Shown in pieces: positions 2,706 through 25,624 of a stretch of 35,099 nt of DNA. The translations under genes and the position numbers were made by a program. The DNA comes from Sphingopyxis sp. (GTDB taxonomy: Bacteria > Pseudomonadota > Alphaproteobacteria > Sphingomonadales > Sphingomonadaceae). Position 1 is the first letter of the stretch. Each line of letters starts with the position of its first letter. The stretch lies in assembly GCA_015657575.1 (NCBI GenBank), contig JACDQN010000257.1:1-35099 (forward strand), read 5' to 3'. A model generated the notes under the pieces. The model saw nothing but the letters and a program-made list of their open reading frames with translations, was not told the origin of the DNA and did no database searches.

Positions 2706-2732
2706 ATACGCACCCCAACAGCTTTGCCCTTG
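2706..2732 (-). promoter_or_regulatory. Predicted ECF promoter CAAGGG-N15-GCGTAT upstream of cytochrome c
   Basis: Minus-strand match to the motif shared by seven sites in this window; 70 nt upstream of the start codon. Confidence 0.6.
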
Positions 2733-2864
2733 TCACAGACGAGGCAGGCGTTTCCGTACTTGCCGCGACGAGCCATTTCAGGGTGCCCACACCCGCTCGG
2801 GCTCATGCGTCCTGCTAGGTGTGGGTTCGGAGAGATCGTGAGGACTAGCCCCTTTTTTGCCCGC

Positions 2865-3341
2865 TCAGATGCCACCCGCCGGCCGCGCCTTCGGCTTGCG
2901 TGAGGAGCTGTGGAGATTGAAGATCTGCCACTTTCCGTTGTCCTGTTTGAGGACACTCGTAGCGACGCCATCCCGTTCGATGGTCTCGCCGCTCGCGAGC
3001 ACAATCGAGAAGCTGTAGGTCTCGGTTGCGATCGCGATATTTCCTTCGCCGCGAACCGAAATCTTGTAATTGCGGAAGGTGAAGGATTTGAATTCCTTGA
3101 GTTCGGGACCCAGGTGATGGTCGCGATAGTGGGCGAAATTCCCTTCAACGCCGCCGGATTCGAATATCTGGGCGTCTGGCGAAAAGAGGGCCTCGACGCC
3201 GGTCAGGTCCAGTTTCTCCATCGCCGATTTATACTGCGCGAGCGCTGCCGCCGCGCCCTGAAAATCCGCAGGCTCGGTCGCCTGAGCCGGGACGGCCACC
3301 AGCATGGCCAATGCGATTGCTGTGATCGTCAGTCGTCTCAT
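2865..3341 (-). CDS. NTF2-like / SnoaL-like (DUF4440-type) secreted protein
   Basis: 158 aa with signal peptide (MRRLTITAIALAMLVAVPAQATE) and NTF2-like pattern (ALFSPDAQIFESGG...GEGNIAIATETYSF...DNGKWQIFNLHSS). Confidence 0.75.
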   Translation of the reverse strand: MRRLTITAIALAMLVAVPAQATEPADFQGAAAALAQYKSAMEKLDLTGVEALFSPDAQIFESGGVEGNFAHYRDHHLGPELKEFKSFTFRNYKISVRGEGNIAIATETYSFSIVLASGETIERDGVATSVLKQDNGKWQIFNLHSSSRKPKARPAGGI

Positions 3342-3393
3342 ATCATTTCCCCTTGTTGTGCCGACACTTCACGAGTGCCTCCGGTGGTTTCGA

Positions 3394-5715
3394 TCAGATT
3401 CTGGCAAAGCGCAGCCGCAAAGAATTGGCGATGACGCTGACGGACGAGAGTGCCATTGCAGCGGCGGCAATGACCGGCGAGAGCAATAGTCCGAAAATCG
3501 GATAGAGCACGCCCGCAGCGACGGGAATCCCGGCGACATTATAGGCGAAAGCGAAGAAGAGATTCTGACGGATGTTCGCCATCGTCGCATGGCTGAGATG
3601 CCGCGCCCGCACGATGCCCAGAAGGTCGCCGCGCAGTAGCGTCACACCCGCGCTTTCGATGGCGACATCGGTTCCCGAGCCCATCGCGATGCCGACGTCG
3701 GCGGCGGCGAGCGCGGGGGCGTCGTTGACCCCGTCGCCGGCCATGGCGACGATCCGGCCCTCTTCGCGCAGTCGCTGCACGACCGCACTCTTCTGGTCGG
3801 GGAGGACATCCGCTTCGACGTCGTCGATGCCGAGACGCCGCGCGATCGCCTCGGCGGTGACGCGATTGTCGCCGGTCAGCATGATGACCTTGATTCCGGC
3901 TTCGCGCAGCGCCGCGAGTGCGTCGCCCGTCGTCTCCTTGACCGGATCGGCGATGGCGATAACGCCGGCCGCCTTACCGTTGACCGCGATGTAGATCGCC
4001 GTTGCACCGTCTGTACGAAGCCGGTCAGCCCCCTCGGCGAGTGCGCCCAGATCGACGTCATATTCTTCGAGAAAGTTCGCATTGCCGAGGACGATCGCCT
4101 TATCGACGACGACCCCAACGATGCCCTTGCCGACCGGCTGGTCGACTCCCGATGGCTCGACGAGCGCGAGGCCGCGGTCTTCGGCCGCTTTGACGATTGC
4201 GGCGGCCAATGGATGTTCGCTGCTGCGCTCGAGGCTCGCGGCAATCCTGAGGAGGTCGTTTTCCTCGAATCCTTCGGCGACTTCGATGGCGACGACCGAG
4301 GGTCTGCCTTCGGTCAGCGTCCCGGTCTTATCGACGACGAGCGTGTTGACCTTCTCCATCCGCTCAAGCGCTTCGGCATTTTTGATCAGCACGCCGGCTT
4401 CGGCGCCGCGCCCGACTCCGACCATGATCGACATTGGCGTCGCGAGGCCGAGCGCGCAGGGACAGGCGATGATGAGCACCGAGACGGCGGCGATAAGGCC
4501 ATAGGCCATGGCGGGCACGGGGCCCAGAAGCGACCAGACAACGAAAGCGACAATGGCGACGACGATGACGCCGGGCACGAACCAGCCCGAAACGGTATCG
4601 GCGAGACGCTGGATCGGCGCCCGGCTGCGCTGCGCGTCGGCGACCATCTGTACGATCCGCGCGAGCATCGTGTCGCGCCCGACCTTCTCGCTGCGCATGA
4701 GCAGGCCGCCCGTCTGGTTGATCGTTCCGCCGATCAGCGCCGCGCCGGCCGCCTTGGTCACCGGCATCGATTCGCCCGTGACCATCGATTCATCGACCGT
4801 GCCGCGGCCTTCTACGACGATGCCATCGACGGGGACTTTTTCGCCCGGACGGATGCGCAGCATGTCCCCGACCGCGACGTCCTCGAGCGCTACCTCCTCG
4901 TCGCTTCCATCGCTGCGGACGCGCCGGGCGAGCTTCGGTGTCAGGTCAAGGAGCGCGCGGATCGCGCCGCTCGTCGTTTCGCGGGCCCTGAGTTCGAGCA
5001 CCTGCCCGAGTAGCACCAGGACCGTGATGACCGCGGCGGCCTCGAAATAGACCGCGACCGAGCCATCGGCGGCGCGGAAAGCCGCCGGGAAGATTTGCGG
5101 GAGAATCGCCGCGATCATGCTGTAGCCCCAGGCAACGCCCGTCCCCATCGCAATGAGAGTGAACATGTTGAGGCTCTTGTTGCGGATCGAGAGCCAGGCG
5201 CGCTCGAAGAAGGGCCAGCCCGCCCATAGAACGACGGGAGTGGCGAGCAGCAACTGGATCCAGTTGTTCGTCTGGCGGCCGATATATTGATGAAGGCCTG
5301 TCAGATGGCCGCCCATTTCGAGCGCAACCACCGGGAGAGCGAGAAGGAGCCCGATCCAGAAGCGCCGCCGCATGTCGCGATATTCTTCGCTGGGGCCATC
5401 CGACGCCGTTGGCATGACCGGCTCGAGTGCCATGCCGCAAATCGGGCAGCTTCCGGGACCAGTCCGCTGAATCTCCGGATGCATTGGGCAGGTCCAGATG
5501 GCGCCCTCTGGTGGATCGATTACGGCCGGCCCGCTATTTCCTGCGTAAAGATCGGGATTGGCCTCGAATTTGGAGAGACAACCCGCGCTGCAAAAATGAT
5601 AATGATGCCCGTTACGCGTCGCTGTGTGGACGGCGGCCGCTGGGTCGACAGCCATGCCGCAGACCGGATCGGTAGCACTTCTCCTGTCTTTTTCTGCGTC
5701 CTGATGAGTGTGCAT
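3394..5715 (-). CDS. copA: Copper-translocating P-type ATPase with N-terminal YHS and heavy-metal-binding domains
   Basis: CPC motif ([13 protein letters not shown]), [24 protein letters not shown]-terminal [10 protein letters not shown] (YHS) and [24 protein letters not shown]. Start chosen at [10 protein letters not shown]; a longer ORF begins at 5769. Confidence 0.93.
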
Positions 5716-5829
5716 CGCCGCCGCTCCCCGATGAATGCCCGCCTCTTGGCGGGCCAGTACAAACGCCAATGGTCTAATTCACCGCTGGCATCTCACCTGG
5801 CGGTTCCGGAACGGAAACCGCTTCTATCG

Positions 5830-5856
5830 ATACGCAACAAGAGCGATTATCCCTTG
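5830..5856 (-). promoter_or_regulatory. Predicted ECF promoter CAAGGG-N15-GCGTAT upstream of the Cu P-ATPase
   Basis: Minus-strand match to the shared motif with exact 15-nt spacer. Confidence 0.65.
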
Positions 5857-5877
5857 GATTTTCTTTGGCAGTTAACG

Positions 5878-6564
5878 TCAGGCCGTGGGCTTTCCGGCCT
5901 CGATGATCGCAATCGCACCGGTTGGCGTGCGAAACGTCTCCACTTCGCGCACGTCGCGAAAGCCGGCCTCTCGCATCAGAACCGGGAGCAATCCATCGGC
6001 ATTGGGCTGCGTATCATGAACGCCATCGAGCTGCTGGATGGTCAGACGGAACAGTGTACGCATAAGGCGGCTGCGCTGTTCTCCATAGTCGGCAACAAAG
6101 AGCTTGCCGCCGGGCGCAAGCGCCTGACGGGCCTCGCGCAGCAGACGCGCCTTTTCTTCAAGTCCAACCTGATGCAGGACGAGGCAGATCGCGACTTTCG
6201 TTGGGGCGGGCCAGCAGGCAACGGCCGATGCCGAAAAGAAGCCGACGCAAAATTCCGGTACGGGGATAATCCGCGCGGTCTTGGTTCGCGCAATTCGCGT
6301 CGCCGCCTCGTCGGGATCGATACCAAGATAGCGGACACCGGAGCTGTGGCGCGCGATCGCCAACGAGAGATTGCCGGTGCCCGAACCGATGTCGAGAATG
6401 ATGTCGCCTTCGGCGGGAGCCATATGGTCGACGAGGCGTTCGCGCCAGATGCGCTCGCGGGTCGTGACGGCAACCCCGAAATCATAAAGCGGCGTCAGCC
6501 AATGATAGCCTGCTGCCGGCGTATAGGAACGCATCGGGGGTTTCGGTTCGGACACGGCGGCCAC
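5878..6564 (-). CDS. Class I SAM-dependent methyltransferase
   Basis: 228 aa; motif I ILDIGSGTGNLSLAIA; methyltransferase pattern throughout. Confidence 0.85.
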   Translation of the reverse strand: MAAVSEPKPPMRSYTPAAGYHWLTPLYDFGVAVTTRERIWRERLVDHMAPAEGDIILDIGSGTGNLSLAIARHSSGVRYLGIDPDEAATRIARTKTARIIPVPEFCVGFFSASAVACWPAPTKVAICLVLHQVGLEEKARLLREARQALAPGGKLFVADYGEQRSRLMRTLFRLTIQQLDGVHDTQPNADGLLPVLMREAGFRDVREVETFRTPTGAIAIIEAGKPTA

Positions 6565-6688: not shown

Positions 6689-7377
6689 TCAGGATATGAT
6701 TTCGAAGGCGAAAGCGCCGAGGCCTGCCGAGGGTGTCACGCCGAGCCATTGACCGCAGCGCCTCGTGAAATGCGACTGGTCGGCAAAGCCGCCCGCCGCT
6801 GCGGCGTCGGCGAGGCCTCCGCCGGCCGCCAGCGCCCGCATGGCGCGCTGGAGCTGGAGCCATTGCAGCAATTTGGCCGGAGGCACGCCAAAGTCCCGGC
6901 CGACGATTTCGCGCAGGCGCGAGGGCGAAAGGCAGGCGACGTCGGCCAGCGCCCGCGCCGTCGACAAATCGTCGGGAATCGCGAGCGCGGCGGACAAACG
7001 CGGGTCGAGCGGGCTTGTCGGCGATTGGTCGAGATAGTCGGACGCCCAGCGCTTGCGTCCGCCGCGCTCGCAATTTCGCCGAGGCCCGCCGCCGCTGCCG
7101 GCGCCAGCAAGACGGGCGCCGACCGGGCGGCGAGGCGCGCATCGGCGCGAAAAAGCGGGTCGAGATAGAAGGACCGCACGAGGGCGCCCTCGGGCCCAAG
7201 GCGATGGTGGACATGCGACGCGATGGCGACGGCCTGTCCGACGGGAAGCGTCATCGGTTCGTCGCCGCCAATTTCGAGATCTCGTTCGACGGCGAGACTT
7301 ATTTGATGCGCGAGATGGCTGTGGGGGCGGCTGTTCCCGATGCGCGCGTCGATCAAGGCCCAGCCGGTTCCCAGCAT
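6689..7377 (-). pseudogene. AraC-family transcriptional regulator, split by a frame change
   Basis: N-terminal half (MLGTGWALIDARIGNSRPHSHLAHQISLAVE...) lies in the frame of ORF 6736-7455; C-terminal AraC HTH (LADVACLSPSRLREIVGRDFGVPPAKLLQWLQLQRAMRAL...GGFADQSHFTRRCGQWLGVTPS) lies in the frame of ORF 6689-7459. Confidence 0.75.
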
Positions 7378-7409
7378 GATCGTGCCCGACCAGGAAGACG
7401 CGTCGGCGC

Positions 7410-8375
7410 TCAAGCCGCGGCGATGCCGACGAACGGCTCGAGCGTCCCGAACCATGCAACCAGCGCGAGGATGGCGAGCGCTGCAGATGCTTCGATCACA
7501 AGGCTCTTGCGCATCGCCGCCAGCGCCAGGTCGGGATCAGTAGCGACTCCCTCCGGATCGGCGCCCGGGATGGCGGCCATGAGCGCCGGGGTTAGCCTCC
7601 AGCGGTTCGCTGCCGCCAGCGCCAGCATCAGGCCGAACAGCGCGAGCTTGGCGAGGAGCAATTGTCCGTAGGGGGATCCGAGCGATCGTCCCAGATTCTC
7701 GGCCCCGACGATCATCTGGCTATTGATGAGGCCGGTCGCGGCAATGACGAGGACGCATATCGTGCCGACGCGCGAAAATTGATCGAGGCTTCGCGCCGCG
7801 AGGCGGACCCCATCCGGTATATTGCCGAGCCGCTTTCGCGAGATCAGCAGCAGGAAGGCACCGATGGCGCCGATCCAGACTGCCGCTGCGATCAGGTGCA
7901 ACATGTCGCTGACCCGATGAATGGTTCCGGCCCCGCCCTCAGTCGCGCCCGCATGGCCGGACCAGACCAAACTGGCAACGGCGACCGAGCCGGCGAGCGT
8001 GAGGATCGCAGCGGCGGTTGTCGGCCAACGTGTCATCCAGATCGCAATCGCCAGCGCGAAAAGCAGCGCGGCGCTCCGGACGATCCAGGCCAAGCCCACT
8101 TCGGACTCGCGCACCAGGTCCCAGAATGGCTGGAACTCGAGCGAGAAGAGGCCGACGCCCTGCATCGACGCCGCGAGGACGGCCATTCCGAGGGTAGAGA
8201 CGAGCAAGCCGGCGATGCACAACCAACGCTCCGCGCGCCAGATCGCAGCCATTGGCTCGAGGTCGGCCCGTTCGCTGCGTGTCAACGCGTAAAGCGAGAA
8301 CGCCGCAAGGCCGACGACGAGCATCAGGTCCGCGTAAAGCGCGAACCTGATGCCGATCAAAATCGGGTCGCCCAC
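7410..8375 (-). CDS. copD: Copper resistance protein CopD family membrane protein
   Basis: 321-aa polytopic protein directly downstream of copC; WSGHAGATEGGAGTIHRVSDMLHLIAAAVWIGAIGAFLLL is CopD-like. Confidence 0.88.
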   Translation of the reverse strand: MGDPILIGIRFALYADLMLVVGLAAFSLYALTRSERADLEPMAAIWRAERWLCIAGLLVSTLGMAVLAASMQGVGLFSLEFQPFWDLVRESEVGLAWIVRSAALLFALAIAIWMTRWPTTAAAILTLAGSVAVASLVWSGHAGATEGGAGTIHRVSDMLHLIAAAVWIGAIGAFLLLISRKRLGNIPDGVRLAARSLDQFSRVGTICVLVIAATGLINSQMIVGAENLGRSLGSPYGQLLLAKLALFGLMLALAAANRWRLTPALMAAIPGADPEGVATDPDLALAAMRKSLVIEASAALAILALVAWFGTLEPFVGIAAA

Positions 8376-8379
8376 CGCC

Positions 8380-8763
8380 TTACTTTACGGTGAAGCTGAA
8401 TTCGCTCCCCATGCGGTGGGTGTCGGCACCTGCCGCCGACCATGTGACCTTGTAGGTTCCGGGCGAGAGCGGTCGCTTGACCATCAACATCGCCGACTTG
8501 CCTTCCTTGCCCATCATCGACGAGAAGGGGACCTTCATCGGAGCATGATTGGCCATGCCCGGCATCCCGGTCATGACCAACTCGGTCTTGAGGGTCGAGG
8601 CGACGATCTTTTCGTTGAACTGGAGATTGATCGACGTCACTTTCGAGACCGTCGAGTTGGCCGTGGGCGTCGAAGCGATCAGCTTGGTGTGCGCGGCCGC
8701 CGTGATCGGCATGAGGAACAACGCGAAAGCCGCAGCCGTAGAGGGGAGAAACGTCTTGAGCAT
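8380..8763 (-). CDS. copC: Copper resistance protein CopC
   Basis: Signal peptide then HTKLIASTPTANSTV...MVKRPLSPGTYKVTWSAAGADTHRMGSEFSFTVK; start at 8763. Confidence 0.92.
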   Translation of the reverse strand: MLKTFLPSTAAAFALFLMPITAAAHTKLIASTPTANSTVSKVTSINLQFNEKIVASTLKTELVMTGMPGMANHAPMKVPFSSMMGKEGKSAMLMVKRPLSPGTYKVTWSAAGADTHRMGSEFSFTVK

Positions 8764-8794: not shown

Positions 8795-8821
8795 ATACGC
8801 AGGACATCGGCATGGCCCTCA
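8795..8821 (-). promoter_or_regulatory. Predicted ECF promoter TGAGGG-N15-GCGTAT upstream of copCD
   Basis: Minus strand TGAGGG CCATGCCGATGTCCT GCGTAT; -10 lies 32 nt from the copC start. Confidence 0.75.
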
Positions 8822-8845: not shown

Positions 8846-8872
8846 TGAGGGGTCCGACGTTGCGGCGCGTAT
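8846..8872 (+). promoter_or_regulatory. Predicted ECF promoter TGAGGG-N15-GCGTAT upstream of the sigma-factor operon
   Basis: TGAGGG GTCCGACGTTGCGGC GCGTAT; divergent from the copC site; ends 31 nt before the first ATG. Confidence 0.75.
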
Positions 8873-8902: not shown

Positions 8903-9169
8903 ATGGATGAGGAGCTTCGCATTTTGGACAGGGTTGATCTGCCCGCAGCACTTGATGCGCTCGACGATCGCATCATGGGGGCGTTGGCGTTGCGACGACG
9001 CGAAGCTGCGGCAATGCCGCGGATGATGGCGTTGGCGGCGTTCATTTCGCTCGCAGGCGGCGTATTTGCGGGAAGCGCGATCTCTCAGCCGGCGGTCGCA
9101 GCGAGTCCGCTCGCGCCCTTTGGGCCGGCGAGCGCGCTGGCGCCCTCCACCTTGCTGGACGTGCGGTAA
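8903..9169 (+). CDS. Small single-TM protein, candidate CnrY-like anti-sigma factor
   Basis: ~88 aa, N-terminal charged region, one TM segment (MMALAAFISLAGGVFAGSAI); first gene of a Y-X-H ordered cassette. ORF track starts at an upstream TTG (8900). Confidence 0.55.
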   Translation: MDEELRILDRVDLPAALDALDDRIMGALALRRREAAAMPRMMALAAFISLAGGVFAGSAISQPAVAASPLAPFGPASALAPSTLLDVR

Positions 9170-9171
9170 AG

Positions 9172-9609
9172 ATGCCCTCACGCCGTCTACTTCTCGTGGC
9201 AATCATCGCATTCGCGGCAGCCATAGCTGGCGTTTTCGTCGGGCGTGTGGTGTCCGATGCGCCGAAGGCGAATGAGACCGAACTGCACGCGTTGCTTCAT
9301 GGTGAACTCGACCTGACCAAAGAGCAGCAAGCGAGGATCGAGCGGATCGAAGCTGATTTTACGAGCCGCCGTCGAGCGTTAGAGCTGGAAATGCGCGCTG
9401 CTAATGTCCGGCTCGCGCAGGCGATTGAGGCTGAACATGGCTATGGGCCGCAGGTCACCAAGGCGATCGACGAGACGCACGAAGTGATGGGCGATCTTCA
9501 AAAGGAAACGCTTCAGCATCTCTTCGCGATGCGAGGAGTCCTGAGCCCCGATCAGGCAGAGATGTTCGACAAGAGCGTGGTCAAGGCGCTGACCGCCGAT
9601 GCGCAGTGA
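9172..9609 (+). CDS. Periplasmic heavy-metal sensor (CnrX/Spy-like)
   Basis: 145 aa, N-terminal membrane anchor, helical LTKEQQARIERIEADFTSRRRALELEMRAANVRLAQAIEAEH and LSPDQAEMFD typical of the metal_resist family. Confidence 0.82.
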   Translation: MPSRRLLLVAIIAFAAAIAGVFVGRVVSDAPKANETELHALLHGELDLTKEQQARIERIEADFTSRRRALELEMRAANVRLAQAIEAEHGYGPQVTKAIDETHEVMGDLQKETLQHLFAMRGVLSPDQAEMFDKSVVKALTADAQ

Positions 9610-10190
9610 GCGCCGACCTATCGCAATTCAGCGATCAGGACTTGGCAGCCTTTGCCCGCGCGCATCGGGAAGATGCATACCGCGAGTTGTTGCGGCGACA
9701 TAAAACCGGTATCTACCGGCTCATCGTCAAACAGATCGGCGATGCCGATGAAGCGATGGATCTGACGCAGGAAAGCTTCGTTGCTGGCTTCTCTGCGCTT
9801 GATCGCTACGATGGCGATCGGTCATTTCGCACCTGGATCGCACATATTGCACTCAATAAATGCCGCGATTGGGCACGCCGGAGACGAGTGCGTGCCTTCT
9901 TTTCCCGAGCGCTTCCGCTGGAGAGCGCCCATCATGTCGCAAGCGACAACCCGGGACCGGACGCCGAGACAACCGACAAGCGGGAGCTCGCGCGGGTTCG
10001 CGGAGCGATCGACCTCTTGCCGCAAAATTTGCGTGAGGTGTTGCTTTTGCGCGGCGTCGATGAGGTCAGCCAAGCGGAAACCGCGATGATTTTGCAAGTC
10101 AGCGAGAAGACTGTCGAAACGCGACTCTATCGAGCGCGGAGCAGGCTCAGAGAATTGCTCGCGGGAACATCCGCGAGCGCAGGAGGTTGA
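9606..10190 (+). CDS. ECF-type RNA polymerase sigma factor (CnrH-like position)
   Basis: 194 aa; region 2 DADEAMDLTQESFVAGFSALDRYDGDRSFRTWIAHIALNKCRDWARRRR; region 4 LPQNLREVLLLRGVDEVSQAETAMILQVSEKTVETRLYRARSRLRELL; 4-nt overlap with the sensor gene. Confidence 0.92.
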   Translation: MSADLSQFSDQDLAAFARAHREDAYRELLRRHKTGIYRLIVKQIGDADEAMDLTQESFVAGFSALDRYDGDRSFRTWIAHIALNKCRDWARRRRVRAFFSRALPLESAHHVASDNPGPDAETTDKRELARVRGAIDLLPQNLREVLLLRGVDEVSQAETAMILQVSEKTVETRLYRARSRLRELLAGTSASAGG

Positions 10191-10240: not shown

Positions 10241-10267
10241 TGAGGGGAAGTCCTTTGGCCTGCGTAT
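10241..10267 (+). promoter_or_regulatory. Predicted ECF promoter TGAGGG-N15-GCGTAT upstream of the multicopper oxidase operon
   Basis: TGAGGG GAAGTCCTTTGGCCT GCGTAT; ends 36 nt before ATG 10303. Confidence 0.75.
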
Positions 10268-10302: not shown

Positions 10303-12173
10303 ATGCAGATGGAAAGGCGTCGGTTCGTCACTGGAGCTTTGGGAGGCGGCGCCGCCGCAGCGATGGCTGCATGGTTCCCCGCTTGGGCCCAGCCTGTCTC
10401 TTCAGGTATCACTGCACCCCTCCCCACTGTCGCCGGCAACGATATTACGCTCCGCATCGCGCGCCAGACGATGCGGATCGACGGCAAGCTCAGTCGCGCG
10501 ATCGGCATAAATGGCACCGTTCCCGCCCCTCTCGTTCGGCTGAAGGAGGGGCAGACCGCCCGCTTGACTGTCGTCAACGACCTCGACGAGGACAGCTCGA
10601 TCCATTGGCACGGGCTGATCCTGCCTTTCCAGATGGATGGGGTTCCGGGTGTCAGCTTTCCGGGCATAAAGCCGCGCTCGACCTTCGTTTACGAGTTCCC
10701 CGTCGTCCAGTCGGGCACCTATTGGTATCACAGCCACTCGGGTCTGCAGGAGCAACTCGGCCATTACGGCCCGATCGTCATCGATCCCGCTGGTGTCGAT
10801 CCGATTGGCTACGATCGCGAGCATGTCGTCGTGCTCTCCGACCACAGTCAATTGTCACCCGAAGCGATCTTCCGCAAACTCAAGGTTAATCCTGGCCATT
10901 TCAACATGCAGCGCCAGACGCTGAGCGGTCTCCTTGCCGGCAAGGACCAGCCGCTCAAGGAACGCGTCGACTGGGGCAAGATGCGGATGGATCCCACCGA
11001 CGTCGCCGACGTCAATGGGTCAACCTATACCTTCCTCGTCAACGGCCACGGCCCGCGCGACAACTGGACCGCACTGTTCAATCCCGGTGAGCGCGTGCGG
11101 CTTCGTATCGTCAACGCCTCGGCAATGACGATATTCAATGTCCGTATCCCTGGCCTCAGAATGACCGTGGTGCAGGCCGACGGCCTCAATGTCGTGCCGA
11201 CCGAAATCGACGAGTTCCAGATCGCGGTCGCCGAGACCTACGACGTGATCGTGACCCCGGTTGAGGATCGCGCTATACGATGGTCGCCGAGGCCAACGAC
11301 CGCTCGGGCATGGGGCGCGCGACACTCGCACCGCGCGCCGGAATGGCCGCCGAGGTGCCCCCGCTGCGCGAGCGTCCGCTCGCAACGATGAAGGACATGG
11401 GCATGGGCGACATGGATATGTCGGGCGGTTCAATGACCGGCATGGACCATAGCGGGATGGCAATGGGAGCCGAAAGCGGCGCGGCGCCGATGGAAATGCC
11501 CGCAGGCGAGACGATGCCGGGCATGGATATGTCAGGTGCCGCTGCACCGGCTGCGGGAGCCATGGCGGGCATGGATCATTCGTCCATGGGCGGCATGGCA
11601 GGCATGGATCATGGCAGCATGAAAATGCGCGATTTCTCGGTCGCACCGCAAGTTGATAAAAATCCGGGCGTTCAGACGATCTCTCCGATGCCGCCTGATC
11701 GCATGGGCGATCCGGGGCAAGGGCTTGAGGATGTGGGGCACAAGGTGCTGACGTACCATGACCTCGTCGCGCTCGAGCGCAATCCCGATGTGCGCGCTGC
11801 CGAGCGGTCGCTCGACATTCATCTCACGGGCAACATGGAGCGCTTCATGTGGTCGTTCGATGGCGTGAAGATGTCCGACTATCATGAGCCGATTCCGTTC
11901 ATCGAAGGCGAACGAGTGCGGATCAACCTCATCAACGATTCGATGATGAGCCACCCCATCCATTTGCACGGCCATTTTTTCGAACTGGTCACGGGGAAGG
12001 GTGATCGTTCGCCGCGCAAGCATACGGTGCTGGTCCAGCCGGGCGGCACCGCGAGCTTCGATTTCACCGCTGACGCGCTCGGCGACTGGGCGTTCCACTG
12101 CCATCTTCTCTATCATATGCACGCCGGGATGATGCGCGTCGTCAGCGTCCGTCCGAAGGGAGACGGCGAATGA
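10303..12173 (+). pseudogene. copA: Copper resistance multicopper oxidase, CopA/PcoA family, interrupted by a 1-nt frameshift
   Basis: Tat signal (MERRRFVTGALGGG), HWHGLILPFQMDGVPG, YWYHSHSGLQEQ, Met/His-rich linker, HPIHLHGHFFELV, HCHLLYHMHAGMM. First half in ORF 10303-11391, second half in ORF 11280-12173. Confidence 0.9.
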
Positions 12174-13387
12174 CCCGGGTCGCGCTCCTCCTCGCGGGTA
12201 TCGCCCCGCTGGCCTTTGCCGTGCCCGCCGCGGCGCAGTCGATGGATCATTCGATGCATGGTGCGGCGCCTGCGCCAACACCTGCTCCTTCGCCAACGCC
12301 GACGCCAGCGCCGGTTGCGCAGCCCGCGCCGGAAGCGCGGGCCGAAGGGTCGATGGAGCAGATGGACCATGGGAGCATGCAGGGCATGGACATGGAGCCC
12401 AAAACTTCGACCTGCCCGCCCGAACATGCGGCGATGGGCCATTGTACGCCCGAGGCGGAGGCTTCGGACAAGGGCGCTTCTGACATGGCCGCGATGGATC
12501 ATGGCACGGCGGCGCCGTCCGATCCCGATTGTCCGCCCGAACATGCCAAAATGGGCCATTGCACCCCGAAGGGCGGGTCTGCGGACCCCATGGCGGGAAT
12601 GGAAGGCATGGCGACCACGGGCAGCGCTAGCGGCACCGATTTGCCGCCGGGAGATGCTACCGCGCCTGCGCCACCCGGCGACTGGTATGCCGATCGCATC
12701 TACCCCAAGGCCGAAATGGAGCATTCGCGCCACGACATGATGAAAGAGAATGGCGCGCAGACCATCGCTTTCATCAGCTTCAACCTCGCCGAATATCAGG
12801 CGCGCAAGGGCCGCGATGGATTCCGCTGGGACGGTGAGGCCTGGTATGGCGGCGACATCAACCGCCTGACACTAAAGAGCGAAGGCGAGGCCGTGTTCGG
12901 CGAAGGCATCGAGGGCGCCGAGGTCCAGGCACTCTACAGCCGGGCGATCGGCCCCTATTTCAATGCGCAGGCGGGTATCAGACAGGATCTTGGACCCGGC
13001 CCCGATCGCACCTATGCGACAATCGGTTTCGAGGGGCTCGCGCCCTATTGGTTCGAAGTCGAGGGCGCCTTGTTTTTGTCCAACAAGGGCGATCTGCTTG
13101 CGCGACTGGAAGGCTATTACGACCAGCGTATTACCCAGAAGCTGATTTTGCAGCCGATGGCCGAATTCAATTTTGCGCTTCAGGACGTTCCCGAAACCGG
13201 AATTGGTTCGGGCCTGTCGGATGTCGAGCTCGGACTGCGCCTTCGCTATGAAATTGTGAAAGAGTTCGCGCCTTATGTCGGTGTCGAATGGGCCCGGAAG
13301 GTCGGGGATACTGCACGCTTTGCACGCGCCGCCGGCGAAGATCCCGGCGGCGTCAACTTCGTGATGGGGGTGCGCGCCTGGTTCTAG
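12170..13387 (+). CDS. copB: Outer-membrane copper resistance protein CopB
   Basis: Met/His-rich N-terminus, then CopB barrel sequence (DWYADRIYPKAEMEHSRHDMMKENG...FRWDGEAWYGGDINRLTLKSEGEA...VMGVRAWF). Confidence 0.93.
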   Translation: MTRVALLLAGIAPLAFAVPAAAQSMDHSMHGAAPAPTPAPSPTPTPAPVAQPAPEARAEGSMEQMDHGSMQGMDMEPKTSTCPPEHAAMGHCTPEAEASDKGASDMAAMDHGTAAPSDPDCPPEHAKMGHCTPKGGSADPMAGMEGMATTGSASGTDLPPGDATAPAPPGDWYADRIYPKAEMEHSRHDMMKENGAQTIAFISFNLAEYQARKGRDGFRWDGEAWYGGDINRLTLKSEGEAVFGEGIEGAEVQALYSRAIGPYFNAQAGIRQDLGPGPDRTYATIGFEGLAPYWFEVEGALFLSNKGDLLARLEGYYDQRITQKLILQPMAEFNFALQDVPETGIGSGLSDVELGLRLRYEIVKEFAPYVGVEWARKVGDTARFARAAGEDPGGVNFVMGVRAWF

Positions 13388-13425
13388 AAGCTGCGCGGGG
13401 CGGCGAATCGTCGAGGAGAAATATC

Positions 13426-13869
13426 GTGAAACCAGCCTATCGCAGTCTCGCGTTGCAGACGATCGTCAGCGGCGTGATCATGTATCTGGTGATGTTCGTC
13501 ATGATCGACCGTCTCTCGAGCTTCTACAATAACCTCAATATGGTCTACATGACGCTGATGATGGTTTCCCCGATGGTCGTCCTGATGATCCTCGCGATGC
13601 CGGGCATGTTTCCGTCGAAACGCCTCAATATGCTTCTGCTGCTGGGATCGGCAGTCGCATTCTTCGGGAGCTTCGGGCTCATCCGGACGCAAACGACCAT
13701 CGGGGACACGGCCTTTTTGCGTTCGATGATCCCGCACCATTCAGGCGCTATCCTCATGTGCGAACAGGCGTCCCTCAAGGACGCCGAAGTTCGCGCACTC
13801 TGCCGCGGAATTATCACGGGGCAAAAGGCCGAAATAGAACAGATGAAATCCATACTCGCGAGGAAATGA
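13426..13869 (+). CDS. DUF305 domain membrane protein
   Basis: GTG start preceded by GAGGAG; several TM segments then FLRSMIPHHSGAILMCEQASLKDAEVRALCRGIITGQKAEIEQMKSIL (DUF305). Confidence 0.85.
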   Translation: MKPAYRSLALQTIVSGVIMYLVMFVMIDRLSSFYNNLNMVYMTLMMVSPMVVLMILAMPGMFPSKRLNMLLLLGSAVAFFGSFGLIRTQTTIGDTAFLRSMIPHHSGAILMCEQASLKDAEVRALCRGIITGQKAEIEQMKSILARK

Positions 13870-13870
13870 T

Positions 13871-14395
13871 ATGACGGGTCGAATGACGCGCCGCGATCTT
13901 CTCGGTCTGATCGCGGCCGGATCGGGCGTGGCGCTAGCGGCCTGCAGCTCTGCTTCGGCTCCAATGGCGGCCGACACCAAGAATGACGAGGCCGACCCGT
14001 CGCGCGCCGATGCGGCAAAGGTCAGACCTATTCTCGTTTATCGCGACCCACAATGCGGCTGCTGCGAAGCGTGGGCAGAGATCGCCCGCAAAGCGGGCTA
14101 TGACGTGACAGTCGAGAACCGTGCCGACATGGCAGCCGTGAAGGCGCGATACGGAGTGCCCGATCAATTGGCTTCCTGCCATACGGCGGTCATTGGCGGC
14201 TATGCTGTTGAGGGTCATGTGCCAATGCGCCATGTCGCCCGACTGCTTGGCGACAAGCCAAACGATATTCGCGGAATTGCCGTACCCGGCATGCCGCGCG
14301 GTTCGCCGGGGATGGAAATGCCGGATGGAAGTTCCGACGCGTTCGAGGTGATGGCGTTCGGCGCGAACGGGAAGATTTCGCGATTCCACGCATGA
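13871..14395 (+). CDS. DUF411 domain protein (copper-associated)
   Basis: Tat/lipoprotein-like N-terminus; LVYRDPQCGCCEAWAEIARKAGYDV...VPDQLASCHTAVIGGYAVEGHVPMRHVARLL. Confidence 0.85.
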   Translation: MTGRMTRRDLLGLIAAGSGVALAACSSASAPMAADTKNDEADPSRADAAKVRPILVYRDPQCGCCEAWAEIARKAGYDVTVENRADMAAVKARYGVPDQLASCHTAVIGGYAVEGHVPMRHVARLLGDKPNDIRGIAVPGMPRGSPGMEMPDGSSDAFEVMAFGANGKISRFHA

Positions 14396-15101: not shown

Positions 15102-15989
15102 TCAGCCCGACAAGCGATTATGTATTGCCGTCGCCGCCTTGGCAGCCTGACCAGACGCCACCGCAATTTGATCTAGCCCCTCGACCATATCGCCGGCAGC
15201 GAATATTCCGCTTATTGTTGTTTGTTGATGTTCATCGACCAAAATGCACCCGGAATCGCTTAGCTCGGCGCCCGCCATTCGCGCCAGACCGCTGTTCGCC
15301 GATGTCCCGAGGGCGGCATATAGCGTGTCAAACTGAAGGGACTCGCCATCTGCCAACGTTATGCGCAAGTCCCGATCTGTGACCGCGATTTCTTGAACAG
15401 GCGCCTGCCTCACGCTCACGCCAATATCCGAAAGATGTGCTGCTTCGATTTCTGAAAGTTGCGCCGCATTCTGTGCGAGCAGTGTCACGGCGCCGGTATA
15501 ATGGCGGATGAATCTTGCCTCGGCTGCGCCATGGTCGGAACTGCCGAGGACCGCAACTCGTTTGCCTCGGACTTCATAGGCGTCACAGATTGGACAATAT
15601 CGTATCAACCCGTGCGCTACCCCTCGGTCATGAGCATCTTGCGCGATCCTGGGTCGATGGTTTGAAACGCCCTGCGCAAGCAATATTGTTCGCGCCTCGA
15701 AGGTTCTCGAACTTGTCCGTGCGGCAAAGCCGGCTTCCGTCCGCTTGAGGCCTTCGACGACGCCAGTCACCATTTCAGCCCCGTAACGGGAAGCATGCTC
15801 CCGCATCCGATGAAGCAAATCGCGGCCCGAAATCCCGTCAGGGAATCCGAGAAGATTGTGCGTTTGCGGGATTTGGGCCGCGCGGCCCGCTCCTTCGTCA
15901 ATGACCAATGTCGCGCGCAGAAATCTTCCAAGATAGGTGGCTGCTGTGAGTCCTGCCGGCCCACCCCCGATGATGATGCAGTCGTACAT
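15102..15989 (-). CDS. Thioredoxin-reductase-like NAD(P)/FAD-dependent oxidoreductase
   Basis: MYDCIIIGGGPAGLTAATYLGRF, CPIC redox pair, C-terminal ISGIFAAGDMVEGLDQIAVASGQAAKAATAIHNRL; start set to 15989. Confidence 0.85.
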   Translation of the reverse strand: MYDCIIIGGGPAGLTAATYLGRFLRATLVIDEGAGRAAQIPQTHNLLGFPDGISGRDLLHRMREHASRYGAEMVTGVVEGLKRTEAGFAARTSSRTFEARTILLAQGVSNHRPRIAQDAHDRGVAHGLIRYCPICDAYEVRGKRVAVLGSSDHGAAEARFIRHYTGAVTLLAQNAAQLSEIEAAHLSDIGVSVRQAPVQEIAVTDRDLRITLADGESLQFDTLYAALGTSANSGLARMAGAELSDSGCILVDEHQQTTISGIFAAGDMVEGLDQIAVASGQAAKAATAIHNRLSG

Positions 15990-16022: not shown

Positions 16023-16049
16023 ATACGTCCCCCGGAGCGCCGACCCTTG
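16023..16049 (-). promoter_or_regulatory. Predicted ECF promoter variant CAAGGG-N15-ACGTAT upstream of the thioredoxin-reductase-like gene
   Basis: Exact 15-nt spacer; -10 differs at its first base; 34 nt from the start codon, like the other sites. Confidence 0.5.
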
Positions 16050-16147
16050 GCCGTGCGTATCTTTCCTCGGAATATGGTCGGAGGCGAGGGGAAAACGTCT
16101 CGGATGCGTAGTATTACCAGGGTCCAACGGCAAAGAGGGCGCATGGG

Positions 16148-16420
16148 TTGGGATTAGAGAACCCGTTCTCGATTTCGATGGGGCAGACGCTTTGGGTCGC
16201 CATCGTTGTAGCCGGCCCTCCGCTTCTGTTGGTGCTGGTGATTGGACTCATTATTTCAATCATTCAGACGGGAACGTCGGTCAATGAACCGACGGTAAGC
16301 TTCATACCCAAAATTCTGGCGTTGGTTCTGTTTCTCGCGCTCTACGGCGCGGTCGCGGTGGATGTGCTGGTTGATTTTACTCGCGACCTTTGGACCCATA
16401 TCCCGGAAGACGTAAGATGA
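16148..16420 (+). CDS. fliQ: FliQ-like flagellar/type III export protein, orphan
   Basis: 90 aa (TTG start): two TM helices, SIIQTGTSVNEPTVSFIPKILALVLFLALYGAVAVDVLVDFTRDLW; no fliP or fliR neighbour seen. Confidence 0.75.
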   Translation: MGLENPFSISMGQTLWVAIVVAGPPLLLVLVIGLIISIIQTGTSVNEPTVSFIPKILALVLFLALYGAVAVDVLVDFTRDLWTHIPEDVR

Positions 16421-16754
16421 TAGCCCACCTTGTGAAACTGGCGCAAACCGTTGCGGGCAGCCCATGGCCGTTTCAGAGAAAAGGTACCAGCGAACTCCCG
16501 ATTATGGGGCCTTGTAAAGCCTTGGGTTCTAGGGCGATCCGCGCAGCTGTCCGAATTGTCCGGCTCGAAATGCGGGTCGAACCCGGCGGTAAAACGGGAC
16601 GCGGTGCCGTGTGGCCCGCCAGCTATCGCAAATATATAACTATTTGGAATAGCCATCACGTTTGTGGAGATGACTCGTGATTATTTCTGGTCATACCACG
16701 GCCCGACAGATAGCTCGCTAGCGAAGCCAAGCGCTTTCGCAACGGGAGGGAACC

Positions 16755-19225: not shown

Positions 19226-19261
19226 TCGGTGGCCGTGAGGGCCGTGCGGCGTCTTGTGTCT

Positions 19262-20167
19262 TCAGCTGCCGTCGGAGCCGAACATCGCGTCGCGGTGGGA
19301 TTCGAGCACCGCGATAAAGGCCGCAGCGACTTGGGACATCGGCCTCAACTTCGGCGTGAAGAGCATATATTCAAAATGGACCTCCGGCGCGAAATCACGG
19401 ACCGTAAGGCCCCGCTCGGCATAATCCGCTGCGGTCACGGGGTTGAGGATCGAACATCCGACCCCCTGCATGACAAGCGCGCAGATGGTCATCGCATATT
19501 GGGTTTCGATGACCATCTCGCGGTGGACGCCCGCGTCCTCGAAAATGCGATCGATGCGGTGACGCACCCCGTCCTCGAGCGCGAGCGAAATGAAGGGCTC
19601 GCCCTCGAGATCGGTCGGCCGAATGACGTCCTTGACGGCCAGCCGGTGACCGGCAGGGAGAACGCAGGCGCCGGGGCAGCGCAGGAAGCGCTCCATCCTT
19701 ATGCCGGGCAATTCGCGCGCCGGCGTCGCGAGCCCGATGTCGAACTGCTGGTTCGCCATCCATTGCCGCACCGTCGAGGAACTGCGGGTCTGGAGCTGAA
19801 CGGTGACGCCGGGATGCGTCTCGCGAAAGGCCGCGATCACGCGCGGCAGGAAACTGACCGCGAGCGCCGGGAGGGCGGCGATCCGGAGCGTTCCGGTCGC
19901 CATGTTGCGGATGTCTTCCGCTACCCGCTTCAGGGCAGCAATACCCGAGAAGCTCCGCTCGACTTCGTAGAAAAAGGCGTCGGCTTCGGGCGTCACGGTG
20001 AGCGCGCTGCCGCGCGAGCGCAGGAAGAGCTGAAAACCCAGCTGATGCTCGAGCTCGGCAAGCATCTTGCTCACCGCGGGTTGCGACAGGTTGAGCGACT
20101 GCGCGGCCTGGGTGACCGATCCCGAGAGCATCACGGCCCTGAAGGCTTCAAGGTGACGCAGGTTCAT
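19262..20167 (-). CDS. LysR-family transcriptional regulator
   Basis: MNLRHLEAFRAVMLSGSVTQAAQSLNLSQPAVSKMLAELEHQLGFQLFLR; start set to 20167. Confidence 0.92.
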   Translation of the reverse strand: MNLRHLEAFRAVMLSGSVTQAAQSLNLSQPAVSKMLAELEHQLGFQLFLRSRGSALTVTPEADAFFYEVERSFSGIAALKRVAEDIRNMATGTLRIAALPALAVSFLPRVIAAFRETHPGVTVQLQTRSSSTVRQWMANQQFDIGLATPARELPGIRMERFLRCPGACVLPAGHRLAVKDVIRPTDLEGEPFISLALEDGVRHRIDRIFEDAGVHREMVIETQYAMTICALVMQGVGCSILNPVTAADYAERGLTVRDFAPEVHFEYMLFTPKLRPMSQVAAAFIAVLESHRDAMFGSDGS

Positions 20168-20222
20168 CGGACATCGCTCCCTATAGCTATTTCTTATGGC
20201 GCTAGCATTGAAAGCCTCGTTT

Positions 20223-21293
20223 ATGAATAGGTCGCACGCATCGCGCCGCTGGTTACCGGCGCTGCTCGCCGCAGGCGCCCTGTTACTCGGCGGCTGCGGC
20301 CGCGAGCCCGCCGGCACCGGTGGGCATGAAATCGCCGCGGCGAAGGGATCGACGCTTGCGCGGATTCGCGCGCGCGGAACGCTTAATTGCGCAATTCATA
20401 CGGGGCAGCTCGGCATGTCCTATCTCGACAAGCGCGGACGCTGGCAGGGCTTCTTCGTCGATTACTGCCGGGCGCTCGCCGCTGCCGTCCTCGGCGATGC
20501 CCGCAAGGTCCGGTTCATGCCGGTCGCCTCGAACAAGCGCTTCACGATCGTGCAGACAGGCGAGGCCGATGTCCTGTCGCGGACGACCACATGGACGCTG
20601 ACGCGCGACACCGACCTCGGGGTGAATTTCGTCGGCACCATGTATTATGACGGGCAGAGCTTCCTGGTGCCCCGGCGATCGGGCGTGCGGCTTCCGGCGG
20701 ATCTCGATGGCGCGTCGATCTGCATCACCAAGGGGACGACCTCCGAACTCAACACCGCCGAATATTTCGAGCGCAAGGGGCTGCGTTTCCAGTCGGTCGT
20801 GTTCGAGAATCCCGAGGAAGCCAAGCTCGCCTTCTTTGCCGGGCGGTGCGACGCAATGACCACCGATGCCTTCACGCTGACGGTGATCCGCCTGGCCGAC
20901 ACCGCGCATCCCGACGATTATGTGGTGCTGCCCGAGCGGCTCACCAAAGAACCGGTCGGCCCAGTCGTGCGCAGCGACGACGAGCAATGGTACGAGATCA
21001 ACAAATGGGTGCTGAACGCGCTCTTCGCTGCCGAGGAAATGGGGGTCACCCGCGCGAATGCCGCGCGCATGCGTATGACCTCGCGCGACCCTGAAGTGCG
21101 CAAGATGCTCGGCGGCTTGCCCGGATTCGGCAAGTCGCTCGGCCTCGACGATGACTGGGCGTACCGGGCAATCGAGGCGACTGGCAATTATGGCGAAATC
21201 TTCGACCGGCACATTACGCCGCTCGGCGTCGAACGCGGACAGAATAAGCTCTATCGGGACGGCGGGCTGATCTACCCGTTGCCGATGCGATGA
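20223..21293 (+). CDS. Amino-acid ABC transporter substrate-binding lipoprotein (AapJ-like)
   Basis: Lipobox LLGGC; TLARIRARGTLNCAIHTGQLGMSYLDKRGRWQGFFVDYCRALAAAVLGDARKVRFMP pattern of family 3 SBPs. Confidence 0.88.
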   Translation: MNRSHASRRWLPALLAAGALLLGGCGREPAGTGGHEIAAAKGSTLARIRARGTLNCAIHTGQLGMSYLDKRGRWQGFFVDYCRALAAAVLGDARKVRFMPVASNKRFTIVQTGEADVLSRTTTWTLTRDTDLGVNFVGTMYYDGQSFLVPRRSGVRLPADLDGASICITKGTTSELNTAEYFERKGLRFQSVVFENPEEAKLAFFAGRCDAMTTDAFTLTVIRLADTAHPDDYVVLPERLTKEPVGPVVRSDDEQWYEINKWVLNALFAAEEMGVTRANAARMRMTSRDPEVRKMLGGLPGFGKSLGLDDDWAYRAIEATGNYGEIFDRHITPLGVERGQNKLYRDGGLIYPLPMR

Positions 21294-23481
21294 ACCATAA
21301 ACACAGGCGGCTTGCCATCGCTGCGTTGCCCTGGCTGCTGATCGCGGGCGGGCTTGTGGTCGCCTACGGCCTGTTTGCGACATTGGCGGACAATCTCGCG
21401 GACCGAAACATCCGGACGGGGTTCGGTTTCCTGTTCGACCGGGCGGGCTTCGCGATTGGCGAAACGCTGATTGCTTACGCGCCGGGCGATTCCTATGCTG
21501 CGGCGCTGGCGGTGGGTCTTCTCAACACGCTCCTGATATCGGCGCTCGGCATCATCTTCTCGACCTTGCTCGGCCTCGCGGTCTGCATGGCGCGCCTGTC
21601 GTCCAACTGGCTGCTTGCGAGGCTCTCCGGCCTTTATATCGAGCTGGTTCGCAATATTCCGCTGCTGCTCCAGATGTTCGTCTGGTACGCCGCGCTGCTG
21701 TTCGGTCTGCCTGGACCCGGCCCGGGCGCCGTCGGACCGTTCGACCTCGATAATCGGGGATTGCACCTCCCCGCGCTCTCCTTGGCCGATCCGGGACGGC
21801 CGGTCTTGCTCATCGCGATCGTCGCCTGTGCGATCCTGCTGGGTGCCGTGCGGCGAGGAGCCGTTCGCACGCGCACTGCGCTGGCCTTCACCGGTATCTC
21901 GCTGGTGCCGCTCTTGCTGTGGGGCGGGATCGATCTGCCGCGGGCGGGGCGCTTCGGAACCGTCGGCGGACTGTCGCTCTCCACGGAGTTTCTGACGCTG
22001 GTCGCCAGCCTTTCGGTCTATGCCTCGGCCTATCTGGCCGAGATATTCCGCGGCGCGATCCTCGCCGTTCCCGCAGGGCAGAGCGAGGCCGCCAAAGCGC
22101 TCGGCCTGTCGCCCGCGCAAACAATGGGACGGATCGTGATGCCGCAAGCGCTGCGCATCGCCATACCGCCGATGACGAGCTGGCATCTCAACACGATCAA
22201 GAACAGCTCCCTGGGGGTCGCGATCGGATATCCCGAATTTGTCTCGGTGGTCGATACCGTCATCAGCCAGACAGGCCAGGCGATCGAAGGCGTCGGTCTG
22301 ATCGTCGCGACGTTTCTTCTGCTCTCGCTGTCCTTGGCGTTCGTCACCGGCCGCTATGCCCGCCGGTTGGGCTGGAGCGTCGCCGGGCAGCCCGGCCGGA
22401 GCATCCAGTCGGCGCCCCTCGAACCCTTTCCGCTGCGCTCGGCGGCCGTCTGGCCGTCGTGGATACGGCGCAATCTGTTCAGAGGAGGACGCCAGTCGAT
22501 ACTGACCATCGCGATCCTCGCCATGACCGCGGCTTTCGCCGGCAAGGGACTCTCGTGGCTGCTGTTCGACGCGACCTTCGCCGGGGGCGCGGCCGATTGC
22601 CGTTTGGCCAGCGGTGCCTGCTGGCCATTCCTCCGCGAAAATGCGCGGCTGATATTGTTCGGAACCTATCCTGAAGCCGAGCAGTGGCGGTCCGCCGCAG
22701 CGGCGGCCGCGCTGCTTTCATGCCTTGCCTTCTCCTTCGTGCCGCGATTCTGGCGCAGCCGCCTCGGGCTTGTCTGGCTCGGCGCAATCGCCGTGGCGGT
22801 ACTTCTACTACGAGGAGGATTCGCGGGCCTTTCCTATGTCCCGATGGAGAAGTGGAGCGGCCTCCCGGTCACATTGCTGCTCGCGAGCCTTGCGGTGGTC
22901 GGCGCTTTTCCACTGGCCATACTCCTCGCGTTCGGCCGCAGGTCGGCGCGGCGCGGCATTCGCTGGCCGAGCGTCGCCTTCATCGAGCTGGTTCGCGGAA
23001 CGCCACTGATCGGGGTACTGTTTCTCGCTGCGGTCCTGTTCCCGCTGTTCGTGCCCTCCTATCTCTCGATCGACAGCCTGCCGCGCGTCCAGCTCGCGCT
23101 CATATTCTTCACCGCCGCCTATATGGCCGAGGTCATCCGGGGCGGCCTGCTGGCGGTTCCCGTCGGGCAGGCAGAGGCCGCGCATGCTCTTGGCCTCACC
23201 AAATGGCAGGCGCGGCGCCACATCCTGTTGCCGCAGGCCCTGAAAGTCAGCGTACCCGGGCTGGTCAACACTTCGATCAGCGAGGTGAAGAACACGACGC
23301 TCGTCCTCATCGTCGGCGTCTTCGACTTGCTGCAGACGACCCGCCTCTCCTACGTCGAGGCGCAATGGCGACCCTATTTCGCCGAAGCCTATCTTTTACC
23401 GGGACAATCTTTTTCCTCCTCTGTTTCTCCCTGTCCCGGCTCAGCATGAAGATCGAACGGAAACTAAACTATGCAGGATAA
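21290..23481 (+). CDS. Fused amino-acid ABC permease (AapQ-like + AapM-like), 1-nt frameshift near the 3' end
   Basis: Two permease modules in one frame, with EAAKALGLSPAQTMGRIVMPQALRIAIPP and EAAHALGLTKWQARRHILLPQALKVSVPG loops. The natural C-terminus ([26 protein letters not shown]) is in the next frame, ending 23481. Confidence 0.85.
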
Positions 23482-24718
23482 TCACGACAGAAAATGGCCC
23501 GGGGAGCCGGCAAGCCCGAAAGGGCGCGCCTGGCAGGATCCGACGCGTGCCGTTCACGGCGGTCCCCGCCCGTGCGATCAGCGGGGCCTCATCAATCCGC
23601 CCGTCGATCGAGCCTCCACCATTATCTACGACAGCGTCGAGGCCTATATGGACCGGCACCAGGGTCTCTACGATGAGGTCATCTATGGCCTGTACGGAAC
23701 GCGAACGACCTTTGCGCTCGCCGAGGCTGTCAGCGAACTTGAAGGCGGCTGCAACACCGTCATCACCTCGTCCGGAACCAGCGCAATCGCGCTAGCCCTC
23801 ACGGCTTTCGTAGCCGCGGGCGACCATCTGCTCGTCGCGGACTGCGTCTATGGGCCGACCCGCAAGTTTCTGACCGACGTTCTCGCGCGTTTCGGGGTCG
23901 AGGTGGAATATTTCCAGCCCGATATCGGAGCCGAGATTGCCGGGCTGTGCCGCAGCAACACCCGGCTCATCTATATGGAGACCCCGGGCTCGCAGACATT
24001 CGATATGATCGACGTCCCCGCGATCACGGCGGTTGCACGCAGCCGGGGCATATTGACCGCTCTCGACAACACCTGGGCCACTCCGCTCTTCTTCAAGCCC
24101 TTGGCCTATGGGGTCGACATCTCGCTTGCTTCGGCAACCAAATATCTCTCGGGGCACTCCGACTGTCTGCTCGGCACGATGACGGCGGCCAGCGATGCCG
24201 TCTACCGCCAGCTCAAGGACGCGGCGGCGCGCTGGGGCAACTGCGCGAGTCCCGACAATTGCTATCTCGTCCACCGGGGCATCAGGACGCTCGATGCGCG
24301 CCTTGAACGCCACCAGCGCACCGCAGCGACGCTGATCGAATGGTTCGCCCAGCAACCCGAAGTGGTTGCGGTCCGCTATCCGGCTCATCCCGCCGACCCC
24401 GGCCATGCGATCTGGAAGCGGGATTTCACCGGTGCGTCCGGATTGTTCGGTGTTCAGCTCGACGGTCTTACCCCGCCCGAAACTAGCGCCTTTTTCAACG
24501 AATTCTCGCTATTCCAGCTCGGTTCGAGCTGGGGCGGCTTCGAAAGTCTCGCGGTTCCGGCGTGGCCCGCTCCGATCCGCGATTTTCCCAATGGCGAGGC
24601 AGATGGGGCGCTGATCCGCATTCACGCCGGCCTCGAAGCGCCGCAGGATCTGATCGCCGACCTCGCCGCAGCCTTCGCGCGGGTACGAGCGCTACGCGGC
24701 CGGGGGCAGGCGTCATGA
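23471..24718 (+). CDS. metC: Cystathionine beta-lyase / Cys-Met metabolism PLP enzyme
   Basis: [10 protein letters not shown]...[22 protein letters not shown]...[22 protein letters not shown]...[17 protein letters not shown] (PLP-lysine motif). Confidence 0.9.
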
Positions 24719-25466
24719 CCGACGCCTCGGGCCACGCGGCCGTCAGCTTGCGGCAGGTCGACAAATATTATGGCGCCTATCATGCCCTCCGCTCGATCGA
24801 CCTCGAAATCGCCCCGCGCGAGCGGATCGTGATTTGCGGGCCTTCGGGCTCCGGCAAGTCGACGCTCATTCGCTGCATGAACAGGCTCGAGGTGCCCGAC
24901 TCCGGCGCCGTCCTGATCGAGGGGGCCAAGATTACCGACGCGTCGCGGGAGGCCGTTGCGGCGCTCCGCGCCGTCGGCATGGTCTTTCAACAGTTCAATC
25001 TGTTCCCGCACAAGACGGTGCTGGAGAATTGCACCCTCGCGCCCGTCCTCCTCGGCGGCTTGTCTCTTCCGGAGGCGGAGGCGCGCGCCATATCCTATTT
25101 GGACAAGGTGAGGATTGGCGACCAGGCGGGCAAATATCCGGGGCAGCTCTCGGGAGGGCAGCAACAGCGGGCCGCAATAGCCCGCGCTTTGGCGATGGAA
25201 CCCAGGATTCTTCTCTTCGACGAGCCGACATCGGCGCTCGACCCCGAGATGATCAAGGAGGTACTCGATGTGATGACGGCCCTTGCCGGCGAAGGACGGA
25301 CGATGGTGTGCGTGACGCACGAAATGGGATCGCGCGCGAGGTGGCCGATCGCATTCTTTTCATGGATCAGGGCCAGATCATCGAAGACGCAAGGCCGGCC
25401 GATTTTTTCGCCGCGCCGAAAAGCGAGCGCGCACGGACCTTTCTCGAACAGATACTTTCGCATTGA
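24715..25466 (+). pseudogene. Amino-acid ABC transporter ATP-binding protein (AapP/GlnQ-like), 1-nt frameshift near 25327
   Basis: Walker [10 protein letters not shown], signature [15 protein letters not shown], Walker [16 protein letters not shown]-terminus [44 protein letters not shown] continues in another frame. Confidence 0.9.
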
Positions 25467-25597
25467 GCGGCTCAAGTCGGTCGCCCCCAAGCTGTGCCGA
25501 CCCACCTAATCATGTCATTTCATAAGCAAGCCGAGGGAGGGGCCAGCCGGCTCCTTGCGCGAAAAGGCTCAGGCCGGAAAAAAAATTTCAAAATCGA

Positions 25598-25624
25598 TGA
25601 GGGGTAGAGCTTTGGGGTGCGTAT
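25598..25624 (+). promoter_or_regulatory. Predicted ECF promoter TGAGGG-N15-GCGTAT upstream of the second TonB receptor operon
   Basis: TGAGGG GTAGAGCTTTGGGGT GCGTAT, same spacer as the copper-island sites. Confidence 0.6.

Follow-up and report, generated by a model that had tools for sequence, protein, structure and literature searches.

A conserved motif in a Sphingopyxis copper island, very probably the promoter of a copper-linked CnrH relative

The closest described system to the locus studied here is CnrYXH of Cupriavidus metallidurans, a cobalt/nickel system built on an extracytoplasmic function (ECF) sigma factor. Its sensor CnrX responds to Co and Ni (PMC7689651), and primer extension placed the starts of the cnrYp and cnrCp promoters 24 and 25 nucleotides (nt) before their genes (PMC9045368). 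ECF systems linked to copper include CorE of Myxococcus xanthus, a copper-dependent sigma factor controlling a multicopper oxidase (MCO) and a copper ATPase (PMC10141476), and the copper-induced SigF-NrsF system of Caulobacter crescentus (PMC8224329). In this work we analyzed a 35,099-nt stretch of Sphingopyxis sp. DNA (contig JACDQN010000257.1; hereafter the window), which carries a copper gene island, three consecutive genes that we call Y, X, and H, the last coding for an ECF sigma factor, and seven sites of the form YRAGGG-N15-RCGTAT. Comparison with more than 100 related gene clusters makes it very probable that this motif serves as the promoter for a copper-linked relative of CnrH. A literature search that did not extend to subscription journals found no paper on a copper-linked CnrYXH system, and no readable sequence of the ECF20 promoter motif was found in it.

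The motif and its link to the sigma factor gene

A sequence-only reading of the window had listed the seven sites, and their coordinates, strands, and sequences all proved right, as did the split into four TGAGGG/GCGTAT, two CAAGGG/GCGTAT, and one CAAGGG/ACGTAT sites (Table 1). Dinucleotide shuffles of the window are expected to contain 0.01 such sites, and none of 100 shuffles reached seven. All seven lie upstream of a gene and are oriented toward it. The gap from the end of the RCGTAT box to the start codon is 31 nt for copC, 30 nt for Y, 35 nt for the MCO gene, and 33 nt for a thioredoxin-reductase-like (TrxR-like) gene; it is 69 nt for the cytochrome c gene, 60 nt (TTG start) or 114 nt (ATG start) for the Cu-ATPase gene, and 127 nt for the TonB receptor gene. 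The claim that each site precedes a gene start stands for all seven, with the correction that the site at 8846 lies before Y, a gene not listed in that reading, and not directly before the sensor gene. With one mismatch tolerated, just one site is added in the window (the eighth site in Table 1), divergent from the TrxR-like gene site, which is itself the weakest of the seven. DUF411 genes are found near the corresponding pair of sites in both L177 and L178.

The motif follows the sigma factor gene across genomes. With a threshold of E below 1e-20, the sigma factor was found in 130 of 301 Sphingomonadaceae genomes and not in the other 171; the first group averages 3.68 motif matches per genome and the second 0.94 (p = 2e-32), which is the background level, while a control pattern gives 0.95 and 0.81 (p = 0.14). 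In a set of 120 sigma loci (1.49 Mb), the spacer is nearly invariant: N15 has 235 matches, N12 has 6, N16 has 5, and N13, N14, N17, and N18 have none, nor are there any matches to reversed or complemented boxes. The sites cluster at three fixed places in these loci, namely before Y, divergent from Y, and just after the sigma gene. A motif-free dyad search upstream of the sigma operons recovered AGGG-N16-CGTA in 106 of 121 loci, the best shuffled dyad reaching 10. Family-wide, the final position of the -10 box may be T, A, G, or C, and ahead of the operon it is often A or G. These boxes are also present in Alphaproteobacteria outside Sphingomonadaceae, at loci that mostly adjoin an MCO gene. 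Chance or duplicated sequence as the origin of the sites is ruled out by the shuffle expectation, the spacer dependence, and the spacer sequences, which differ among sites; the earlier rejection of simple duplication is upheld.

The mapped Cupriavidus promoters match these boxes. We found cnrYp to be CAAGGG-N16-CCGTAT and cnrCp to be CGAGGG-N16-CCGTAT, each 31 to 32 nt upstream of its gene; since the mapped starts lie 24 and 25 nt before the genes, transcription begins 8 nt past the -10 box in both. From this geometry, transcription starts in the window are predicted near 2698, 5822, 8787, 8880, 10275, 16015, 16119, and 25632. In a genome outside the class (G940, locus L296), a cnr-like locus with an apparent RND pump likewise combines N16 with CCGTAT. 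Spacer length is not a strict indicator of the metal, as MCO-linked loci L161, L163-L165, L285, and L291 also use N16. In a sigma factor tree viewed by promoter type, CnrH falls among copper-linked factors, with weak deep forks and an arbitrary root. Taken together, the motif's tracking of the sigma gene, its fixed places, its exact spacer, its motif-free rediscovery, and its likeness to the CnrH boxes argue for the ECF promoter code proposed in the sequence-only reading. The centrally encoded ECF sigma factor, named there as the candidate reader, likewise gains support from the way the motif follows its gene across genomes.

The full-genome scan suggested earlier was also run on the source draft genome (3.8 Mb, 561 contigs, 78% complete). 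The exact motif has one match beyond the window (contig C206, CGAGGG type), the same number as the reversed-pattern control, so seven of the eight genome matches fall in less than 1% of the genome. A genome-wide spread of the regulon was not seen in the draft genome: a looser motif gives 11 matches, 7 of them in the window, against 5 for the control. The sole plausible outside site among the looser matches (C560:2046-2072 of genome G000; L299, 1501-1527) reads TGAGGG-N15-GCGTAA, lies about 140 nt before a TonB receptor-like gene, and may mark an outlying member of the regulon.

The Y, X, and H genes

The order and sizes of Y, X, and H are those of cnrY-cnrX-cnrH. H has 194 amino acids and ends shortly after region 4 with no Cys-rich tail; its match to CnrH is 11 orders better than that to the next ECF factor in PDB. 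X keeps the CnrX ligand positions, which we take to be H42, H46, E63, H119, and M123, and, of 123 sensors from the family, 117 to 121 retain any given one of the five. Met123 has been confirmed as a CnrX ligand (PMC7689651). In addition, at the positions of Glu106 and Ala109 of CnrX, 121 of the 123 sensors carry His and Met, respectively. This His-x-x-Met is also missing from NccX and from the sensor of the Ni-type locus L296, and is present in MCO-linked sensors outside the family. It may play a role in copper selectivity, although the sample of Ni-type sensors is very small. X has no match in phage records.

Y is a candidate anti-sigma factor. Most loci have, in the corresponding position, a Y-like open reading frame of similar size and with a hydrophobic segment; its C-terminus (LAPSTLL) is conserved, and it typically starts 18 to 40 nt past the -10 box. 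The Y gene, the eighth site, and the kinship with CnrYXH are additions to the sequence-only reading. Locus L108, from a genome that has the sigma gene in two copies, contains another Y-like gene around +7319, equipped with a site of its own. Another, L099, is a sigma locus with paired promoters and no match to X or MCO in the stretch covered; it possibly answers a different signal with the same code.

Proposed switch and alternative explanations

We hold with good, though not full, confidence that a single ECF sigma factor, H, uses the sites as its -35/-10 promoters, and that Y holds H, X senses metal, and H switches on the copper island. Y would keep H at the membrane; X would bind metal in the periplasm, copper being the likeliest, upon which H would be released from the Y-X complex. 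At each of the eight sites, RNA polymerase with H would begin transcription about 8 nt past the RCGTAT box. H would transcribe its own operon in a positive feedback and would turn on CopCD, the Cu-ATPase, MCO, CopB, DUF305/DUF411, and cytochrome c, together with the TrxR-like enzyme with the FliQ-like protein and the TonB receptor with the PepSY proteins. That H reads the sites is suggested by the comparisons above, and that copper is the probable signal is suggested by the target genes. Most sigma loci have an MCO gene close to the sigma gene. Most targets in relatives, which were identified by eye from translations, are copper genes (MCO, CopC, DUF411, DUF305, His/Met-rich small proteins, and a TonB receptor), and a further target is a Cys-rich copper-storage-like protein. 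In L123 and L131, sites precede the gene of a small Cys-rich protein that looks like a four-helix copper storage protein.

Several points weigh against this reading. About 15 of 121 loci do not have the autoregulatory motif, and a profile comparison of Y with CnrY gave no significant similarity (hhalign probability 1.2%). The loci were partly picked from motif listings, which makes the 120-locus fractions approximate and not fully unbiased; the comparison of 301 genomes and the sigma-ranked locus set are unaffected by this bias. Two further points concern the metal. CnrX, which is Co/Ni-responsive, has the same five ligands as X, and this weakens the case for copper as the inducer. In Sphingobium sp. 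ba1, copA, copB, and copC were up with 10 mM Ni (PMC5557971), so a nickel cross-response is possible. Both would fit the same promoters and sigma factor responding chiefly to nickel or cobalt, or to general envelope and metal stress, an alternative we consider unlikely but worth some weight, as the regulon in the window and in relatives is mostly copper-handling, no nickel efflux RND operon is among the listed targets, and X has the extra His-x-x-Met absent from the nickel-type sensors.

It is also conceivable, and in our view quite unlikely, that several ECF factors share the promoter code and H is not the sole owner of the regulon. ECF specificity can overlap, and several genomes have at least two paralogues with the same motif; in the draft genome, which is 78% complete, only a single match to H is found at E below 1e-20, and the sites lie around it. 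We regard as very improbable that the sites are operators of a conventional copper regulator of the CopR, CueR, or AraC type, with the sigma gene merely a neighbor. CopRS or CueR control is frequent among copper genes and the island does contain an AraC-type gene (6695-7377, frameshifted here), but the motif is asymmetric and oriented with a rigid spacer, four sites lie 30 to 35 nt from a start codon, the boxes are those mapped for CnrH, and the motif is at background in genomes without the sigma gene.

The copper island and its relation to known systems

The features of the window are collected in Table 1. The MCO gene is split into two frames near 11274, by a sequencing error or a recent frameshift. 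The AraC-type regulator gene lies between copD and a methyltransferase gene and has a single frame in L050, L070, and L192. The FliQ-like export protein is found in the copper island with its own site, and two relatives also have it next to their TrxR-like gene. A segment at 16664-25509 coding for a second TonB receptor, an apparent amino-acid ABC transporter, and an apparent pyridoxal phosphate-dependent enzyme has no site before these genes, and it separates the TrxR-like part from the copper-linked TonB receptor.

Table 1. Predicted promoter sites and genes in the window (fractions of the 120 family loci are approximate)
Feature	Positions	Strand	Remarks
Promoter CAAGGG-N15-GCGTAT, cytochrome c gene	2706..2732	-	Same site in three same-genus loci, L049-L051
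Promoter CAAGGG-N15-GCGTAT, Cu-ATPase	5830..5856	-	Also in L049-L051 and plasmid pMC4 (L070), spacers altered
Promoter TGAGGG-N15-GCGTAT, copCD	8795..8821	-	Divergent site there in 58/120 family loci
Autoregulatory promoter TGAGGG-N15-GCGTAT, YXH operon	8846..8872	+	Relaxed motif in 82/120 family loci
Promoter TGAGGG-N15-GCGTAT, MCO/copB operon	10241..10267	+	Post-sigma site in 52/120 loci
Promoter CAAGGG-N15-ACGTAT, TrxR-like gene	16023..16049	-	Counterpart at same distance in L177, L178
Eighth site CGAGGG-N15-GCGTAG, divergent from TrxR-like site	16085..16111	+	CGAGGG-N15-GCGTAA in L177, L178
Promoter TGAGGG-N15-GCGTAT, TonB receptor/PepSY operon	25598..25624	+	Kept in L172-L175 (four same-genus genomes) and pMC4
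Y, 88-aa single-pass membrane protein, putative anti-sigma factor	8903..9169	+	
X, periplasmic metal sensor, CnrX/NccX type	9172..9609	+	Pfam PF13801 9e-20; NccX 4clv 3e-20
H, ECF sigma factor, CnrH type	9606..10190	+	Best PDB match CnrH 4cxf 2e-30, next 2e-19
Membrane-anchored cytochrome c, His-rich tail	2007..2636	-	Putative target of 2706 site
Copper-type P-ATPase, YHS and heavy-metal-binding domains	3394..5769	-	Pfam; putative target of 5830 site
copC-copD	7410..8763	-	Pfam CopC, CopD; putative target of 8795 site
Multicopper oxidase CopA	10303..12173	+	Pfam; two frames here, one open frame in relatives
CopB	12170..13387	+	Pfam PF05275 7.5e-90
DUF305 and DUF411 genes, downstream in copper operon	13288..14395	+	Pfam
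Thioredoxin-reductase-like oxidoreductase	15102..15989	-	Putative target of 16023 site
Solitary FliQ-like membrane protein	16148..16420	+	Pfam PF01313 1.8e-20; putative target of eighth site
TonB-dependent receptor and two PepSY_TM proteins	25752..29901	+	Pfam

In sphingomonads, the locus would be the likely master control of copper resistance, and it would provide a promoter code with predictive value in many genera. It would also tie a nickel sensor of known structure to a branch that probably senses copper, so that metal specificity could be tested by residue swaps. A bolder proposal, which we offer tentatively and hold to be somewhat doubtful, is that CnrYXH is one side branch, adapted to nickel, of a wider alphaproteobacterial family that senses mainly copper and in which the His-x-x-Met of the sensor would set copper specificity and the first base of the -10 box, often with a one-base shorter spacer, would separate copper from nickel promoters.

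Among systems under other kinds of control, copABCD regulated by CopRS/PcoRS has the same effector genes, with two-component control there and a predicted ECF sigma factor here. SigF-NrsF is, like the present locus, an alphaproteobacterial ECF system linked to copper; however, the SigF regulon comprises DUF692, DUF2282, DoxX, and sulfoxide reductase genes, its anti-sigma factor is NrsF, and no CnrX-like sensor has been reported. CorE shares the tie of an ECF sigma factor to an MCO and a copper ATPase, but it senses copper by its own Cys-rich C-terminal extension, whereas here a separate periplasmic sensor is encoded and the sigma factor is CnrH-like. The nearest likeness is to CnrYXH, in the Y-X-H order, the homologous sigma factor and sensor, a putatively autoregulated promoter some 31 nt upstream of Y, another promoter directly following H, the -35 box YRAGGG, and the -10 core CGTAT. 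The differences are a spacer of 15 instead of 16, a -10 box of GCGTAT instead of CCGTAT, the extra conserved His-x-x-Met of X, a Y protein with no detectable similarity to CnrY, and several promoters across an island, compared with two around one efflux operon in Cnr. The neighbors here are MCO, CopB, CopCD, and Cu-ATPase genes in place of the Co/Ni RND efflux operon cnrCBAT that Cnr controls; the locus therefore appears to be a related copper-linked branch and not Cnr itself, one that probably works like CnrYXH, homologous to it in X and H, and is tied to copper genes instead.

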